From Botrytis cinerea B05.10 (lineage: Eukaryota > Ascomycota > Leotiomycetes > Helotiales > Sclerotiniaceae), in contig NC_037322.1 of the NCBI RefSeq assembly GCF_000143535.2, positions 1,798,001 through 1,862,000 on the forward strand: a DNA stretch of 64,000 nucleotides. The letters run 5' to 3'. Shown piece after piece: positions 37,862-45,105 of this stretch. The notes under the pieces were generated by a model that was not told the origin of the DNA, ran no database searches, and was given only the letters and a program-made list of their open reading frames with translations. A program made the position numbers and the translations under genes. Each line of letters begins with the position of its first letter. Positions within the stretch are counted from its first letter, which is position 1.

Positions 37862-38437
37862 CGATTAGGCGAATAACTTCTTCACAAACGATTAGAAAAT
37901 TTTCCTCTTAAAGGATTTAATGAAATTCTTGAATTTTGCTTTTAGATAATCAATACTTGATTTCTATGAAATGCGATTAATAATTGAATTCAATATGAAA
38001 TATATAAATTAGAGTTATATAAATATAGCAATAAAGCTTTTAATTAAAGAAATAAATTGAAAATGACATAGGTAAATGATTTACTCCTTACTTCTCTTCT
38101 TCTTCTTTTTCTTCTTCAAGCTTTCGATTAATATCTTTTACTTACTTTATAACTCTTACACTCGATGCCCTTCTCCTCCTCCTCCTCCTCCTCCTCCTCC
38201 TCCTAGCTTTTACATTTATTCCTTTCCTCTTTCCAACTTTCCCACTCGCTTCTCTTTTACTTAACTTACTTTTCCTATAATTGTAATATTTATCGCATTC
38301 TGAAATCTCGACGGCCTTTGACAAGCTAGACTAATATAATAATAACTAATTATATAAAAAAGAAAGAAAGAGGTGAATATTTGTTTCTCTATTTATCTAT
38401 CTATTTATTTATTAGTCTATCTATCTATCTATCTATC
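36063..38437. other. Gene-poor microsatellite-rich spacer left of the retrotransposon
   Basis: A 2.4-kb low-complexity spacer. It has (CATA)n near 36755-36773, (CATC)n near 37550-37567, an uninterrupted A29 tract at 37830-37858, an AT-rich block at 37860-38060, (CTC)n at about 38175-38204 and a (CTAT)n run at about 38417-38437 that holds the insertion site. No gene was supported. Confidence 0.65.
38433..38437. repeat. Target-site duplication CTATC (left copy)
   Basis: CTATC precedes the left LTR and CTATC (45056-45060) follows the right LTR. Because the target is a CTAT microsatellite, a 5-bp duplication is consistent but cannot be proven from this sequence alone. Confidence 0.6.
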
Positions 38438-38998
38438 TGTTACGGGAGCTGCCTCTAGGGTCACGTGGAAGTGTCTAGAGATCTCTCGAGGTGGTTTAGA
38501 CTAGACTTCAAGTAGGAATTCAATAAGGTTGTAACTGGTTGCAATTCTCGTAACTATAGTAATGAAACTAATGATTGTTCTTGAGCACGAAGCTCTACAT
38601 TGTAATGAAACCCATTCCATATATAGACCTTCGTCCTGAAGTCGAATCGACAAGTCGAGTCGGCAAGTCGAGTCGGCTTTGTAGTCACATGACACTTGTC
38701 CTGTGACTCTTATTGTCCTAGTTTGTCCTTTTGTCCTGGGGCTAATCCCCTGGGGTATTACTAATATAACTTCGCGAAAAGTTTGCAAAGTTATGTTCGG
38801 CGTTTCCTAGAACCTATTGTCCTAGGAACTGTATCCTACGTTCTAGGATATCCTATGACTAATACTATATACATGCCTGAGGCTTTCCTTGGGTGCCTAG
38901 TGTCCCCCGGTATACTGCAGCTGAATCACTGAGGCCTATAATACCATTATAGCCTATACGTTGGTGATTCTACAGCCTGTTACTAATCCGTCGTAACA
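38438..38998 (-). repeat. 3' LTR (left) of the retrotransposon
   Basis: A 561-bp terminal repeat bounded by TGTTACG...CGTAACA. It reads identical to the copy at 44495-45055 over its full length by eye, with equal length and the same internal ORF shadow. Confidence 0.97.
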
Positions 38999-39011
38999 CT
39001 ATCCCCTTCTT
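38999..39011 (-). promoter_or_regulatory. Polypurine tract for plus-strand priming
   Basis: In element sense, AAGAAGGGGATAG lies directly before the 3' LTR, the required place for the polypurine tract. Confidence 0.75.
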
Positions 39012-39096
39012 AGCCTAGCGCTTGTCCCAAGCGTTTATATTAGTACGTCTTCCCTTCTGTATTTAATGTAAGTGAGTGTGATATTTTCTTTTCATT

Positions 39097-39714
39097 ATGC
39101 CTCCTGTCCGAACAACTTCTGTTCATGATCCCGCATTCTTATCCGCTCGTGTCGCCCGTTCTGGTAGTAAACGTGAGCCTTGTGCTTTGTGTTTTCAAAC
39201 AGGTCGTGATTGTTTGGTGGACGAAGAATTGTCAAAACGCTGTTCCGCGTGTATTCGTTTCAAGAAGGGTCGCTGTCACCCTGGGTTTGCGATGCCTTCT
39301 CAATATGAATCTCTGGAGCGACAGCAGGAGCAGCTTCGCTTGGAAGAGGAAAAGGCTTTTGCCGAATCGCAAGTTCTTTCCGCTAAGTCCCAAGAATTGA
39401 CGGCTCGAATTCTTCGTTTGCGTCGTCAACAAGAATTTCTTCGCAAGCGTGAAAAGGAGATGATTCGTCGAGATCTTCGTACGCTAGAAGAGCTTGATCT
39501 AGCTGAGGAGAATGAAAGGTTGGAAAAGGAAAAATTGGAAAAGGAGCGTGCGGAGAAAGAGACAGCAACCGCTGTTACTACGTCTACTCCTAGTGGTTCT
39601 TCTTTTGGTTTCTTCGACCCCTCGTTGCCTTTGTTGTCTGATGCGGAGCTTGAGGCTTTGTTGGCAGATGTGGGTACTTCAGGTGGAATGCCCGTAGTTT
39701 CTCAGGGCAGCTGA
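39097..39714 (+). CDS. Antisense six-cysteine (Zn2Cys6-spaced) coiled-coil protein inside the retrotransposon
   Basis: A 205-aa ORF on the strand opposite gag-pol. It starts 98 nt inside the left LTR and its last 125 bases overlap the 3' end of pol. The cysteines C29, C32, C39, C49, C52 and C60 have spacing C-x2-C-x6-C-x9-C-x2-C-x7-C, which fits the fungal Zn(II)2Cys6 binuclear cluster, although the usual basic residues between them are sparse. Residues about 70-155 are a Glu/Lys/Arg/Leu-rich coiled coil. The tail is Ser/Thr-rich with an acidic LSDAELEALLADVG end. A DUF-type cysteine domain of unknown role is an alternative. Function is unknown; a regulator of the element or of host chromatin is conjecture. 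Confidence 0.75.
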   Translation: MPPVRTTSVHDPAFLSARVARSGSKREPCALCFQTGRDCLVDEELSKRCSACIRFKKGRCHPGFAMPSQYESLERQQEQLRLEEEKAFAESQVLSAKSQELTARILRLRRQQEFLRKREKEMIRRDLRTLEELDLAEENERLEKEKLEKERAEKETATAVTTSTPSGSSFGFFDPSLPLLSDAELEALLADVGTSGGMPVVSQGS

Positions 39715-42700
39715 GATCTTCCTTGAGTTCCCATGTGTTTTCTGAATGTGGGTAGTCTAACCATTTGATCAAATACTTGACCTTGTTTCTGACGTATTTG
39801 CAGTCTAGTATTGTTTCGACATCGTATATGGCGTTTGGGTTGACTGGTTCAATTTCTGTAAATGGCGCATTTGGCGCTCCTGGTGGTGCTGGTTCGAGCA
39901 AGGATATGTGGAATACTGGGTGGATATTCATTGTGTCTGGTAATTTCAATTGATAATTAACCGTTCCTATTACCTTATCAATCTTGAATGGTCCTAGTTT
40001 CCTGTGGTCGAGTTTATTGCTTGGTCTCTTGGTTTCGATGTTTCGTCGTAGCAAATAAACTTTATCCCCCTCTTTAAGCGTAGGTTCCATACTACGTTTC
40101 GTATTGTAGTACGCTGCTGTTCTGGAAGATATGAATCTTAGATCAAGAGCCAGTTGCTCTTGGAGATCTTTCAACTGTTCGACTTGTACTATCGCTGATT
40201 CGGCATTAACTTCTTGTGGTATCGGGATTTTATACGCTTGTGGATTAAACCCAAAATTAGCTCGTGCTGGTGTGATTTTCGTGGTTTCCGTTTCCGATGT
40301 ATTGTATGCGAACTGTGCCATGGGTAATAGCTCTACCCAATTGTCTTGTCGATAATTTACATAGCATCTAAGATATGCTTCCATTGTCTGATTGGTCCTC
40401 TCTGTTTGACCATCTGTTTGTGGGTGGAAAGATGTCGATAGCTTTCTCTTGATACCCATAAGTGCTAATAAGGTAGTCCAGAATTTCGAGGTAAAGAGCT
40501 TGTCTCGATCCGAGATTATCTCATCTGGTACTCCGTGTATGCTTACTATGATCCTTAGGAACACATATGCTAGTTGTTCAGCATCCCATGTTTCCTTGAA
40601 TGGTATCATATATGCAAATTTCGTTAGCCTGTCTACTATATTGAGTATCGCGTCGTACTCAATTCCTGTAGTAGGATCTTTTGAGAGTGGTAGTTTGACC
40701 ACAAAGTCCCATGTGATGGACTTCCATGGCTGAGAAGGCATGTCTGGGGTCTGGAGCTGACCATACGGAGCATGTCGTGATGACTTGTTTCGTATGCAGG
40801 TGTCACAATTTCCAACAACTTCTTCAACTATCGTTCTCATTCGTGGGAAGTAACTGATTTCCCGTATTCTTGCAAATGTCCTTGCAATTCCTTGATGTCC
40901 ATGTGCCGGTAATCCGTGTTGTTCCGTCACAAATTCCTTGGTCATTTGACTCGGAATGTATACTTTTCCATGAAAGTATATGGTATCATTTTCTATAGTG
41001 AATCCTGGTTCTATTGTCTTGCGTATGCGTGTGGCAGTAGCATCCTTGTCGTAGTGTGATTGGATCTGTTTCTTGAGGTGGTTGTCTTCCAACAGGTGTG
41101 TTGCTGCAAGCTGTGGTGCATTGTAAACCAGTGATTCGCCGTCTTTCTTGAATATAGCGTATGACTCGTACGTTTTGTTTTCTTGATATTCTGGTTTTCG
41201 GCTAAGAGCGTCGGCTCTAGCGTTTTCTGATCCTTTGACATATGAAATTCTGAAATTGTAGTTGGCCATGGTCTCCGACCATCTGACCTGTCGTCTGTTT
41301 AACTGCTTCGTTGTGGTGAAGTAAACCAAGTTCTTATGATCTGTATACACCTGTACCGTGTATTTCGATCCTTCCAAATACACTCGCCATTCTCTAAATG
41401 CATCGACTATCGCCAGTAATTCTTTGTCATATATCTCGTAATTCAATTCGGCTGGTGATAGTTTTCGGGAGTAGAATGCGATTGGCTGGTATTTTCCATT
41501 CTGGCCCGGTTGGCTCAGAACTGCTCCTATAGCGAAATCCGAGGAGTCCGTCTCCACTATGATTTCTTTCTCTGGGTCAAAAGTCAACAGTATTGGCTCT
41601 TCTGCCACTGCTTGTTTGAGCGTATCGAATGACTCCTGTGCTTTGGCAGTCCATTCGAAGCTTCCTTGATCTTTTCTGGTTAACGTGGTCAAGGGTGTAG
41701 TAATCCCTGAATAACCCTTGATGAATCTTCTGTAGAAGTTGACGAACCCTAGAAAGGATTGTACTTCCTTGATTGTGGTTGGCTGCTTCCATTCGAGCAC
41801 TGCCTTAACCTTGTCTTTGCTCATCTTGAGCCCTTGGCTTGACACGGTGAATCCCAAGAATTCTGTTTCGGTGACATGGAATTCGCATTTGCTTGGTTTG
41901 CACAGCAAGTCTGCCTTGGATAGGCTTTCGAGGATGTTGCTAACGTCCTTAATGTGTTGAACCTTGTTGTTTGAATATACTAGGATGTCGTCCAAGTAGC
42001 ATATACAGCAAGTATCCAAGTATTGTGACAACACATTGTTCATAAGCCTCATGAAAGTAGCTGGTGCGTTGGTTAGCCCGAACGGCATAACTTGGTACTC
42101 GTATAGCCCGTATCTTGTTTTGAAAGCGGTCTTCCATTCTTCGCCTTCCTTCATTCTGATCAAGTGGTAACCATTACGTAGGTCCATCTTGGTAAATATC
42201 GTAGCTCCGCCTAACCGATCTCTTAATTCCGTAGCTAATGGAAGTGGATATCGATCCTTCTTAGTGAGTGCGTTAAGCTTTCTATAGTCTACAACTAGTC
42301 TATCGGGTCCATCCTTCTTGGGTACCCACATAGTTGGACTGGCCACTTGGGACGCGGATTCCCTGATCCATCCCTTGGCTAAATTGTCGTCGATGTACTC
42401 TCTGAGCCTCTTTAACTCATCGGCTGACATTGAATAAATTGGGGTGTGCACAGGCATCTTGCCTTCTTCCAATATTATCTCATGATCCCATGGCTTGTGT
42501 TCCGGTAAAGCCTCATGGATCCCTGGTTCTTTGAAAACATGTTCATATTTCTTGTACTGTTCTGGTATCGTAGGCCTTTCTTTTGCCTCGATTGCGATTT
42601 CGTGCCGTGTCGTTGGCTTCTGCATTTGTAGAGGAGGTGTACTGGCCTTCGCTCTTAATGGAGGACCCTGGACTGGGTGTCCTACGTCGCCGGTGTTGTT

Positions 42701-44443
42701 CGCGTTCAACTCTCCTTGGCGCGTGTTACGTCTCGCGGACGCCTCTAGCGTGTCCCTGTGACCGCTTTTGCACTGATCAAATGTCACAACTCCTTGTGCC
42801 CAATCTATTTTCGGATTATGTGCCTTTAACCATGGCATTCCTAAGATGATCTGTTGTTGGCCCAATGGCACAACGTCAAGCTGTATAACCTCTGTATGTT
42901 GGGTTATGCCCATTCGTATTGGGATTGTCTCCTGCGAAATCTTTCCGTCAGACCCTGCTAGCTGTCCATCAACTAACTGCAATCGATAGGGGTGTTGTTT
43001 CGTTTGAAGTGGTATTCCCAAGTACTTTACAGCTTCCGGTGCAATAAAATTTCCTGTAGCCCCTGAATCTATCATGGCTGATTGTATGTGTCCATTTATC
43101 TGAACCTTGCAGTATATCTGTCCTGCCTGTCCCGTAGCATTTAACTGCTGGGTAACTTTGCGAACTTCTTGCGAAGTTATATTGGGAGTTAAATCCTCGC
43201 ATGTTACATTATTCTGATGGTTCTTCGTCTTTCTCTTCTTAGGGGACCATCCGGTTGCTTCTTTATCTGATCGATGGATTCCGCAGAATTCATCATAGCA
43301 AGCTGTCCAGCTCATCGTGGCGTGGTCTGCTTCTGCCTCGTCCTGATGACTTTCTTCTGTCACAGAGGGTGTTGGGGTTCTGTAATACTCTTGCTCCCAT
43401 AAGTCTATTGCATTCATGCCCTCTTGATTTCGTGGTAATTCCTTTAGTAATTGCTGGAATTCCTCAACGGTGAAAGTCTCAGTATTTTCGGATTTAGTTG
43501 GATTTTCTGGGATTGTAAAGGTAGCGTTAAGTTGGCCTTTGCCGAACTTAGGTTTGAAGTTGCCCCTTTTTCCTCCTGTCTTCTTGCTTCGGCAGTCTGC
43601 TGCTCGGTGCCCTGCTTTTCCACATTCAAAGCATAAGTTGTTTTCTCGTCTTCGTCTCTTTTCCGAGTCATCGTTCCCGTTTGTGTAGTGCGTGGCGTCT
43701 AGTTCCATGGGGTCTCCGTATCTCTGTGGATTGTAACGTGGTCTACCCTCATTTTTGCGGTAACGCCCTTGCTTCTGATTTCCTTGGGGTTTGTATGATC
43801 TCTGGCTTTGTCGATATCTGTAGAGACGATCATCTGATTCGATGGAGTCCTGAATTAGATCGTTCAGATCTGTACTCTCGGCAGATCTTTCTAATTCCAG
43901 TCTGACTTCTGGTTTGAGTCCCTTGCGGTAGTGACTCATGATAGCGATTTCGTCCCACTTGGTTGTTCCAGCATATCTTCGAAATTCCGTAGCATATTTC
44001 AATGCTGATCCTGTCTGCTTGAGGTTGAAGATCTTATCTTCCGCTACCTCTAACTCGTTGGAATTTCCGAAGATTCTACGAATCTCTGTCTTAAATCCTT
44101 CAAAACTATTGAAGATTGTTCGGGTGGGTTGCATACGATCCTTATCGTCATGCTCGAAATAGTCGCGCAAATATGGTTGGATCCATTTGGTTGCTTCACC
44201 TCGAAGGTATGATGCGGCCCATATACTCTTGGATTCCTTGGTAGTGAACTTGTCCTCATTGAATCGAAAGTAGATCTCAAGTTGTAAGAGGAAAGTATCG
44301 AGCTCTTGTCGACTACCTTGGTACTTGTCTGGTAAGGCGATCTTAAGGGTTTCGTTGATAGTGATCTCCTTTGGGGCGTCGGTCATCTCGATGTCGTTGG
44401 TGTCTCCGGCAGATTGACCTGTGGCGGTAGCTCTGGATGCCAT
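39590..44443 (-). CDS. Gag-Pol polyprotein of Ty3/gypsy retrotransposon, intact, with chromodomain
   Basis: One uninterrupted 1617-aa frame encodes everything needed for retrotransposition. Gag occupies about 1-290 and ends in the zinc knuckle C271-x2-C-x4-H-x4-C284. The aspartic protease has DSG at 459-461. Reverse transcriptase spans about 655-830 with YLDD at 816-819. RNase H is at about 960-1080 (ETDSSDFAIGAVL, YTDHKNL). Integrase has the HHCC zinc domain (H1176, H1181 or H1183, C1213, C1216) and a D1246-D1312-E1348 triad. A chromodomain lies at about 1540-1590 (YLIKWLDYPHSENTWE). Gag and pol share one frame with no frameshift site. No inactivating mutation is seen. The ATG at 44443 lies 51 nt inside the 5' LTR. 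Confidence 0.97.
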   Translation of the reverse strand: MASRATATGQSAGDTNDIEMTDAPKEITINETLKIALPDKYQGSRQELDTFLLQLEIYFRFNEDKFTTKESKSIWAASYLRGEATKWIQPYLRDYFEHDDKDRMQPTRTIFNSFEGFKTEIRRIFGNSNELEVAEDKIFNLKQTGSALKYATEFRRYAGTTKWDEIAIMSHYRKGLKPEVRLELERSAESTDLNDLIQDSIESDDRLYRYRQSQRSYKPQGNQKQGRYRKNEGRPRYNPQRYGDPMELDATHYTNGNDDSEKRRRRENNLCFECGKAGHRAADCRSKKTGGKRGNFKPKFGKGQLNATFTIPENPTKSENTETFTVEEFQQLLKELPRNQEGMNAIDLWEQEYYRTPTPSVTEESHQDEAEADHATMSWTACYDEFCGIHRSDKEATGWSPKKRKTKNHQNNVTCEDLTPNITSQEVRKVTQQLNATGQAGQIYCKVQINGHIQSAMIDSGATGNFIAPEAVKYLGIPLQTKQHPYRLQLVDGQLAGSDGKISQETIPIRMGITQHTEVIQLDVVPLGQQQIILGMPWLKAHNPKIDWAQGVVTFDQCKSGHRDTLEASARRNTRQGELNANNTGDVGHPVQGPPLRAKASTPPLQMQKPTTRHEIAIEAKERPTIPEQYKKYEHVFKEPGIHEALPEHKPWDHEIILEEGKMPVHTPIYSMSADELKRLREYIDDNLAKGWIRESASQVASPTMWVPKKDGPDRLVVDYRKLNALTKKDRYPLPLATELRDRLGGATIFTKMDLRNGYHLIRMKEGEEWKTAFKTRYGLYEYQVMPFGLTNAPATFMRLMNNVLSQYLDTCCICYLDDILVYSNNKVQHIKDVSNILESLSKADLLCKPSKCEFHVTETEFLGFTVSSQGLKMSKDKVKAVLEWKQPTTIKEVQSFLGFVNFYRRFIKGYSGITTPLTTLTRKDQGSFEWTAKAQESFDTLKQAVAEEPILLTFDPEKEIIVETDSSDFAIGAVLSQPGQNGKYQPIAFYSRKLSPAELNYEIYDKELLAIVDAFREWRVYLEGSKYTVQVYTDHKNLVYFTTTKQLNRRQVRWSETMANYNFRISYVKGSENARADALSRKPEYQENKTYESYAIFKKDGESLVYNAPQLAATHLLEDNHLKKQIQSHYDKDATATRIRKTIEPGFTIENDTIYFHGKVYIPSQMTKEFVTEQHGLPAHGHQGIARTFARIREISYFPRMRTIVEEVVGNCDTCIRNKSSRHAPYGQLQTPDMPSQPWKSITWDFVVKLPLSKDPTTGIEYDAILNIVDRLTKFAYMIPFKETWDAEQLAYVFLRIIVSIHGVPDEIISDRDKLFTSKFWTTLLALMGIKRKLSTSFHPQTDGQTERTNQTMEAYLRCYVNYRQDNWVELLPMAQFAYNTSETETTKITPARANFGFNPQAYKIPIPQEVNAESAIVQVEQLKDLQEQLALDLRFISSRTAAYYNTKRSMEPTLKEGDKVYLLRRNIETKRPSNKLDHRKLGPFKIDKVIGTVNYQLKLPDTMNIHPVFHISLLEPAPPGAPNAPFTEIEPVNPNAIYDVETILDCKYVRNKVKYLIKWLDYPHSENTWELKEDLSCPEKLRAFHLKYPHLPTKPQAPHQTTKATRGRRNQKKNH
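40945..40966 (+). ncRNA. 22-nt match to a reported Botrytis small RNA (Bc-siR5), antisense to pol
   Basis: The stretch begins TTTGACTCGGAATG and ends ACTTT. As I remember the published sequence of Bc-siR5, a retrotransposon-derived Botrytis small RNA reported to silence a host plant gene, it agrees at all or all but the last base. It is antisense to pol codons about 1160-1166, just before the integrase zinc domain. The recollection was not checked. Confidence 0.5.
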
Positions 44444-44484
44444 ATTAGCGGTTGGTTATCGAATCGGTACTTGAAGCAGAAAGG

Positions 44485-44493
44485 GTGCTCAAA
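44485..44493 (-). promoter_or_regulatory. Primer-binding site, self-priming (Tf1-like) type
   Basis: In element sense, TTTGAGCAC starts one base after the 5' LTR. It does not begin with the TGG that complements a tRNA 3' CCA end. It can pair with GTGCTCAAG inside the LTR (44637-44645 on the plus strand as CTTGAGCAC): eight Watson-Crick pairs plus a G-U. That string lies about 38 nt after a TATATAT, where the mRNA could begin, as in Tf1 self-priming. Confidence 0.65.
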
Positions 44494-44494
44494 G

Positions 44495-45055
44495 TGTTAC
44501 GGGAGCTGCCTCTAGGGTCACGTGGAAGTGTCTAGAGATCTCTCGAGGTGGTTTAGACTAGACTTCAAGTAGGAATTCAATAAGGTTGTAACTGGTTGCA
44601 ATTCTCGTAACTATAGTAATGAAACTAATGATTGTTCTTGAGCACGAAGCTCTACATTGTAATGAAACCCATTCCATATATAGACCTTCGTCCTGAAGTC
44701 GAATCGACAAGTCGAGTCGGCAAGTCGAGTCGGCTTTGTAGTCACATGACACTTGTCCTGTGACTCTTATTGTCCTAGTTTGTCCTTTTGTCCTGGGGCT
44801 AATCCCCTGGGGTATTACTAATATAACTTCGCGAAAAGTTTGCAAAGTTATGTTCGGCGTTTCCTAGAACCTATTGTCCTAGGAACTGTATCCTACGTTC
44901 TAGGATATCCTATGACTAATACTATATACATGCCTGAGGCTTTCCTTGGGTGCCTAGTGTCCCCCGGTATACTGCAGCTGAATCACTGAGGCCTATAATA
45001 CCATTATAGCCTATACGTTGGTGATTCTACAGCCTGTTACTAATCCGTCGTAACA
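44495..45055 (-). repeat. 5' LTR (right) of the retrotransposon
   Basis: A 561-bp terminal repeat. In element sense it carries the promoter for gag-pol and a GTGCTCAAG string that can pair with the primer-binding site. It is identical by eye to the 3' LTR, indicating recent insertion. Confidence 0.97.
44676..44682 (-). promoter_or_regulatory. Putative TATA box of the 5' LTR promoter
   Basis: TATATAT in element sense, followed about 38 nt later by the GTGCTCAAG string proposed as the transcript start/self-primer. The same motif exists in the other LTR. Confidence 0.5.
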
Positions 45056-45104
<49 letters not shown>

Positions 45105-45105
45105 G
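45056..45105. repeat. (CTAT)n microsatellite, right side of the insertion site, with TSD copy
   Basis: A tetranucleotide run starts directly at the LTR end. With the run at about 38417-38437 it forms the pre-insertion microsatellite. Its first five bases, CTATC, are the right TSD copy. Confidence 0.85.

Follow-up and report, generated by a model that had tools for sequence, protein, structure and literature searches.

What does an open reading frame (ORF) carried on the strand opposite gag-pol do for a retrotransposon? The question is raised by a Ty3/gypsy element of the Boty-like (BcGypsy1) type found in the window analysed here, a stretch of 64,000 nucleotides from Botrytis cinerea B05.10 (contig NC_037322.1). 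The first-pass annotation had placed an ORF of 205 codons opposite gag-pol; the ORF begins with ATG and its antisense orientation holds, while the location is mostly between pol and the 3' long terminal repeat (LTR), the overlap with pol being confined to 125 bp. An antisense ORF in this position of a Boty-like element is the published gene brtn, described by Zhao et al. 2011 (Virology 417:248), as cited in PMC8365987, PMC7264820 and PMC4227169; thus the gene is not new, and the earlier statement that additional ORFs have been reported in gypsy elements of Botrytis was correct. Indeed, a database entry named 'Putative BRTN' (P0010) is 53% identical to the window protein over 100% of the query (E 1.4e-44), and named relatives were found by protein searches in Botrytis, Monilinia, Sclerotinia and Stromatinia. 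We propose, with a probability of roughly 0.55, that BRTN serves as a transcription factor encoded by the very element whose LTR it reads, more likely as an activator or anti-silencer than as a repressor. The analysis covers one genome, four classes of LTR repeat arrays and DNA of this species only, and combines sequence and model evidence.

According to the parts of the literature that were accessible, the latest B05.10 annotation does not include brtn (PMC8365987); a 2020 review regards antisense ORFs located between pol and the 3' LTR as being of unknown function and notes that none of them had been described as clearly similar to other proteins (PMC7264820); and a Monilinia fructigena transcript, strand unstated, is similar to a truncated Pol plus BRTN (PMC5987419). 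No report of a zinc-cluster reading of BRTN, or of its pairing with an array in U3, was found in the literature searched, which did not include the original description by Zhao et al. 2011. The interest of the locus lies in the testable pairing of BRTN and array, not in the existence of the gene: a concrete protein-DNA pair, for which the four natural classes serve as internal controls of specificity, opens one such antisense ORF to direct tests. If true, the proposal would show a route by which an LTR element can bring its promoter under private control, and would explain why several divergent 3' ends occur on one gag-pol backbone.

Maintenance of brtn and architecture of its product

The host genome (42.6 Mb, 18 contigs) contains 60 brtn matches, so the ORF is not a product of chance. 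Among the 36 best-scoring matches, which were the first copies read, 29 hold a full-length brtn ORF of 189-206 amino acids and have a G+C content (GC) of 0.41 or more; the GC of the other seven is 0.16-0.37, as expected after repeat-induced point mutation. A full-length pol ORF accompanies brtn in 24 of the 29 copies, and in five pol is broken with brtn still open. The high-GC copies with an interrupted gag-pol ORF and an open brtn are L012, L020, L021, L038 and L043. The 29 copies are not independent, since they form seven near-clonal subfamilies, A-G (5 copies of A, 1 of B, 2 of C, 5 of D, 5 of E, 6 of F and 5 of G).

Outside the overlap with pol, the ratio of nonsynonymous to synonymous substitutions (dN/dS) of brtn is 0.16-0.36 in 11 of 15 subfamily pairs, those unsaturated at synonymous sites, and in the remaining four the corresponding ratio of uncorrected proportions (pN/pS) is 0.44-0.54. 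Within the overlap, simple counting, which is biased in overlapping frames, gives a dN/dS of 0-0.59 in the frame of brtn (a value being available in 14 of 15 pairs) and of 0.61-1.24 in that of pol (in 13 of 15); this contrast of frames points to BRTN as the constrained product. Residues 1-28 of the protein evolve loosely, with dN/dS up to 1.49 in single pairs. Neither a frame broken in most intact copies nor a neutral substitution pattern, two outcomes envisaged in the first-pass annotation as telling against its reading, occurred: brtn is open in all 29 high-GC copies read and its substitutions between subfamilies are non-neutral. The ORF is genuine and is maintained. It is very improbable that the antisense RNA matters, through double-stranded RNA or small RNAs, and the protein does not. 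The accessible parts of two sources do report that small RNAs come from BcGypsy1 (PMC8365987) and that roles of antisense RNA have been suggested for ORFs of this kind (PMC7264820); however, the constraint acts on amino acids, the frame stays open in the high-GC copies, and conservation of the protein domain extends to relatives in several genera.

The window protein contains six cysteines in all (residues 29, 32, 39, 49, 52 and 60), and their spacing is exactly the C-x2-C-x6-C-x9-C-x2-C-x7-C noticed at first sight, which falls within the Zn2Cys6 pattern CX2CX6CX5-12CX2CX6-8C. Protein searches retrieved 14 relatives at first and then 58; the strict spacing is present in 40 of 59 proteins examined, many of the rest being fragments. 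PF00172 is the commonest Pfam match in the relatives (19 of 58 at E up to 1, best E 1.1e-4), the next commonest family being found in 4 of 58. AlphaFold2, run on a 58-row alignment, modelled the whole of BRTN with a mean predicted local distance difference test score (pLDDT) of 85.3 and a predicted template modelling score of 0.48, placing a helix at each CxxC pair, a single helix over residues 69-158 and a short helix in the tail; the six-cysteine domain modelled alone is less certain (pLDDT 66.6). All 15 Foldseek matches of the domain model at E up to 10 (best E 0.93) are chains of fungal zinc-cluster proteins (Pho7, AlcR, Leu3, Hap1, Lac9, Ppr1 and Gal4), as are three of the four matches of the whole model; each match is non-significant alone, and the evidence lies in their agreement. 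The Ppr1 entry states Zn2Cys6 in its title, and the other matched entries are presumably Zn2Cys6 proteins as well.

The six-cysteine domain of BRTN thus looks like a divergent Zn2Cys6 cluster, on the evidence of spacing and model. The long helix that follows it agrees with the coiled coil anticipated from the sequence, and a coiled coil over residues 69-158 is plausible. The last 45 residues are net acidic in all 38 relatives tested, and the zinc segment is net basic in 33 of them. Fungal Zn2Cys6 factors (PF00172; Gal4, Leu3, Pho7, AlcR, Hap1) share with BRTN the cysteine spacing and the helix per CxxC pair, as well as a post-domain helix for dimerisation and an acidic tail, which on the BRTN side are predicted features; unlike them, BRTN is much shorter and borne by a retroelement, and the window protein is too divergent for Pfam.

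Divergent U3 arrays and their match with BRTN classes

The subfamilies share most of gag-pol. Synonymous differences between them are 0-0.13 in the tested segments of gag, protease, reverse transcriptase (RT), RNase H and integrase, and DNA identity over positions 39715-40300, within pol, is 96-99% in all 21 subfamily pairs; chromodomain synonymous differences reach 0.39, in pairs with F. One G copy used in the synonymous counts, L019, is identical to D in gag and RT, possibly as a result of exchange, given its D-type 5' LTR. Divergence is concentrated in two islands: in the pairs AE, AG and EG, identity falls to 18-33% in a short block of U3 and to 32-47% over brtn codons 1-100, but is 95-96% on the U5-R side of the LTR, 98% across the linker of U3 (38770-39001), 100% around the polypurine tract (PPT) and 99% in pol. 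The subfamilies A, B, C, E and G are 97-100% identical to one another in the two segments that separate the islands, the 232-bp linker and the PPT region, so the divergence does not form a single block.

The divergent U3 block, directly upstream of a TATA-like box in the sense of the element, is a short-repeat array. In A, B and C it is made of GTCGA repeats in 13- or 12-bp units, in D and E of CGCTCC (4 and 2 copies), in F of GGATAG (7 copies) and in G of TGGGA (8 copies in symmetric order); the repetition of every block at k=6 was reached by at most 1 of 2000 dinucleotide shuffles. Among the 21 block pairs, array similarity exceeds all 1000 shuffles only in AB, AC, BC and DE, the arrays of B and C being identical; similarity is weak in EF (5 of 1000 shuffles) and DG (8 of 1000). 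Grouping by zinc domain places the same four pairs within classes, with identities of 32/32 in AB, 19/32 in AC and BC and 25/31 in DE, against 9/35 to 17/32 in the other pairs. The array was readable in 32 of 39 loci and unreadable in seven; in all 32 the 3' LTR motif agrees with the class assigned to brtn by its closest BRTN (10 loci of ABC, 10 of DE, 7 of F and 5 of G). Fourteen further LTR stretches, inspected by eye, contain the same four kinds of motif only, with a shortened G-like form in L049. Thus, class-specific repeats in the non-coding DNA of the element differ along with the protein it encodes. Of the earlier suggestions on function, regulation of the element is favoured by these arrays, while regulation of host genes is unsupported.

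The G array of L020 (about 306-402 in brtn orientation) has eight TGGGA/TCCCA sites at spacings of 9, 19, 9, 5, 9, 19 and 9, an almost symmetric order as expected for paired sites of a dimer. The E array of L015 also repeats GGACAGC/GCTGTCC, one base off the GGATAGC of the F array (L017), which may account for the weak EF similarity.

Exchange between LTR and brtn does occur, as judged from subfamily B, in which brtn codons 1-100 are identical to those of A and the LTR to that of C, both of one class. Different subfamily types are found in the 5' and 3' LTRs of L019 (D-type/G-type), L031 (E-type/A-type) and L011 (A-type/C-type), which suggests exchange between copies after insertion. These data bear on the possibility that array and brtn co-diverge only through their shared position at the 3' end, BRTN acting elsewhere, for instance in nuclear import or integration, or in association with Gag or integrase. 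The two lie close together and are co-inherited, arrays can change fast by slippage, and two copies have a 5' LTR array of another class; however, the conserved linker and PPT region separate the islands, and no cross-class pair of 3' LTR and brtn occurs among the 32 readable loci, in spite of the recombination seen in B. Such an origin of the match seems quite unlikely.

Several observations weigh against a transcription factor matched to its array. No Pfam family matches the window protein at E up to 10. The U3 linkers of D and F are 11-34% identical to the others, so that the evidence for separate islands comes from A, B, C, E and G. Repetition is weaker for D at k=5 and k=7 and for E at k=7 (up to 66 of 2000 shuffles), and the zinc domain alone hardly separates AC, at 19/32, from pairs across classes, at up to 17/32. 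The 32 agreeing loci amount to only four classes. Finally, in L019 and L031 the class of the 5' LTR array differs from that of their own brtn, a mismatch that we read as exchange after insertion.

Proposed mode of action and known systems

In the proposed mechanism, a TATA-like site next to the 3' LTR would drive transcription of brtn, and the gene product would dimerise through the coiled coil and read DNA by means of the divergent Zn2Cys6 cluster, contacting both zinc and DNA. BRTN would bind the U3 array directly upstream of the gag-pol TATA-like box and most likely raise gag-pol transcription or free it from silencing, the acidic tail probably acting as activator. Each BRTN class would read its own array, the two forming a matched pair, as lock and key, on one shared gag-pol backbone. 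Activation or anti-silencing is favoured because of the acidic tail, and activation is held to be about twice as likely as repression.

Conversely, BRTN could be a self-repressor that binds the array and switches off copies of the class to which it belongs, as a form of copy-number control, so that a new class would escape the resident repressor, like phages of another immunity type. The array adjoins the TATA-like box, several classes coexist in one genome on nearly the same pol, and the numbers of high-GC copies with full-length brtn per subfamily are in keeping with such control; moreover, repression would give new classes a clear advantage and explains no less well than activation why several classes are kept. 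However, an acidic, hydrophobic tail in all the relatives tested fits activation better, and the near-identical LTRs of most high-GC copies indicate recent movement despite resident copies; we regard self-repression as unlikely, though as the chief alternative.

BRTN as proposed here has partial counterparts elsewhere. HBZ of human T-cell leukaemia virus type 1 is an antisense-encoded regulatory protein with a coiled coil from the 3' end of a retroelement; differently from BRTN, it is a basic leucine zipper protein with a different domain, and its gene is spliced. Foamy virus Tas is encoded in sense orientation and is another type of protein. As described in the accessible part of PMC4929722, Tas, from an animal retrovirus, is retroelement-encoded, binds the promoter in its own LTR and raises transcription. 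The plant antisense ORFs termed aORF-3R (Grande, RIRE2, Retand) resemble brtn in position and orientation and belong to other protein families; their function is described as unknown in the accessible text of the 2020 review (PMC7264820). The nearest working analogue is VANC of the Arabidopsis VANDAL DNA transposons, which, in the accessible part of PMC5735166, targets tandem repeats in the non-coding DNA of its own element, co-diverges with these targets from one related element to another and has an anti-silencing activity demonstrated by experiment. VANC and BRTN are both element-encoded, and in both cases repeats and protein diverge together, a likeness by description in which the binding of BRTN is putative; VANC differs in belonging to a plant and to a DNA transposon.

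Age of the classes and layout of the element

In a BRTN tree of 49 rows, with species taken from database names, A-type BRTN groups with proteins of Botrytis, Monilinia, Sclerotinia nivalis and Stromatinia (support 100/98), and G-type BRTN with those of S. sclerotiorum and Botrytis (100/100 for the clade of 9 rows and 97/90 for the 7 rows nested within it). Since these clades span genera, the BRTN classes seem to be older than the genera or to have been transferred between them, and the import of old 3' ends onto one backbone would fit better than local mutation, pol uniformity being known from this genome alone. A wider reading, which we consider tentative and somewhat doubtful, is that Boty-like elements have exchangeable identity cassettes, each made of a zinc-cluster protein and its matched U3 array, with old classes spread across genera on a near-uniform gag-pol and each class controlling itself only, as in phage immunity types. 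No description of such a system for LTR retrotransposons was found in the literature searched.

Table 1. Features of the Boty-like element and of brtn in the window (positions counted from the first letter of the window)
Feature	Position	Strand	Basis
Whole insertion, Ty3/gypsy chromovirus (Boty-like, BcGypsy1 type)	38438..45055	-	identical LTRs and flanks; pol domains
3' LTR (left in window)	38438..38998	-	sequence
TATA-like box of U3, 3' LTR copy	38617..38629	-	sequence; putative function
U3 array of class A (three GTCGA-containing units of 13 bp), candidate target of BRTN	38639..38677	.	sequence; putative binding
TATA-like sequence, 63 bp ahead of the start codon of brtn and possibly its promoter	39034..39043	+	sequence; putative function
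brtn, 205 codons	39097..39714	+	ORF, genomic copies, constraint
Six-cysteine zinc-cluster-like domain, residues 29-60	39181..39276	+	spacing, model, Foldseek, Pfam in relatives
Long helix, residues 69-158, probable coiled coil	39301..39570	+	AlphaFold2
C-terminal tail of 45 residues, acidic and hydrophobic, candidate activation domain	39577..39711	+	composition; putative function
Convergent overlap of brtn and pol, 125 bp	39590..39714	.	brtn frame constrained, pol frame nearly neutral
gag-pol, 1617 codons	39590..44443	-	ORF and domains
5' LTR (right in window)	44495..45055	-	sequence
TATA-like box of U3, 5' LTR copy	starts 44674	-	sequence; putative function
Class A array, 5' LTR copy, upstream of the gag-pol TATA-like box	44696..44734	.	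sequence

A long TATC/CTAT microsatellite surrounds the element (38410-38437 and 45056-45105); CTATC flanks the insertion on either side, and its status as a target-site duplication is uncertain because the flanks sit inside this microsatellite. The two LTRs, of 561 bp each, are identical in sequence, and between them the order gag, protease, RT, RNase H and integrase, followed by a C-terminal chromodomain, identifies the element as a Ty3/gypsy chromovirus.
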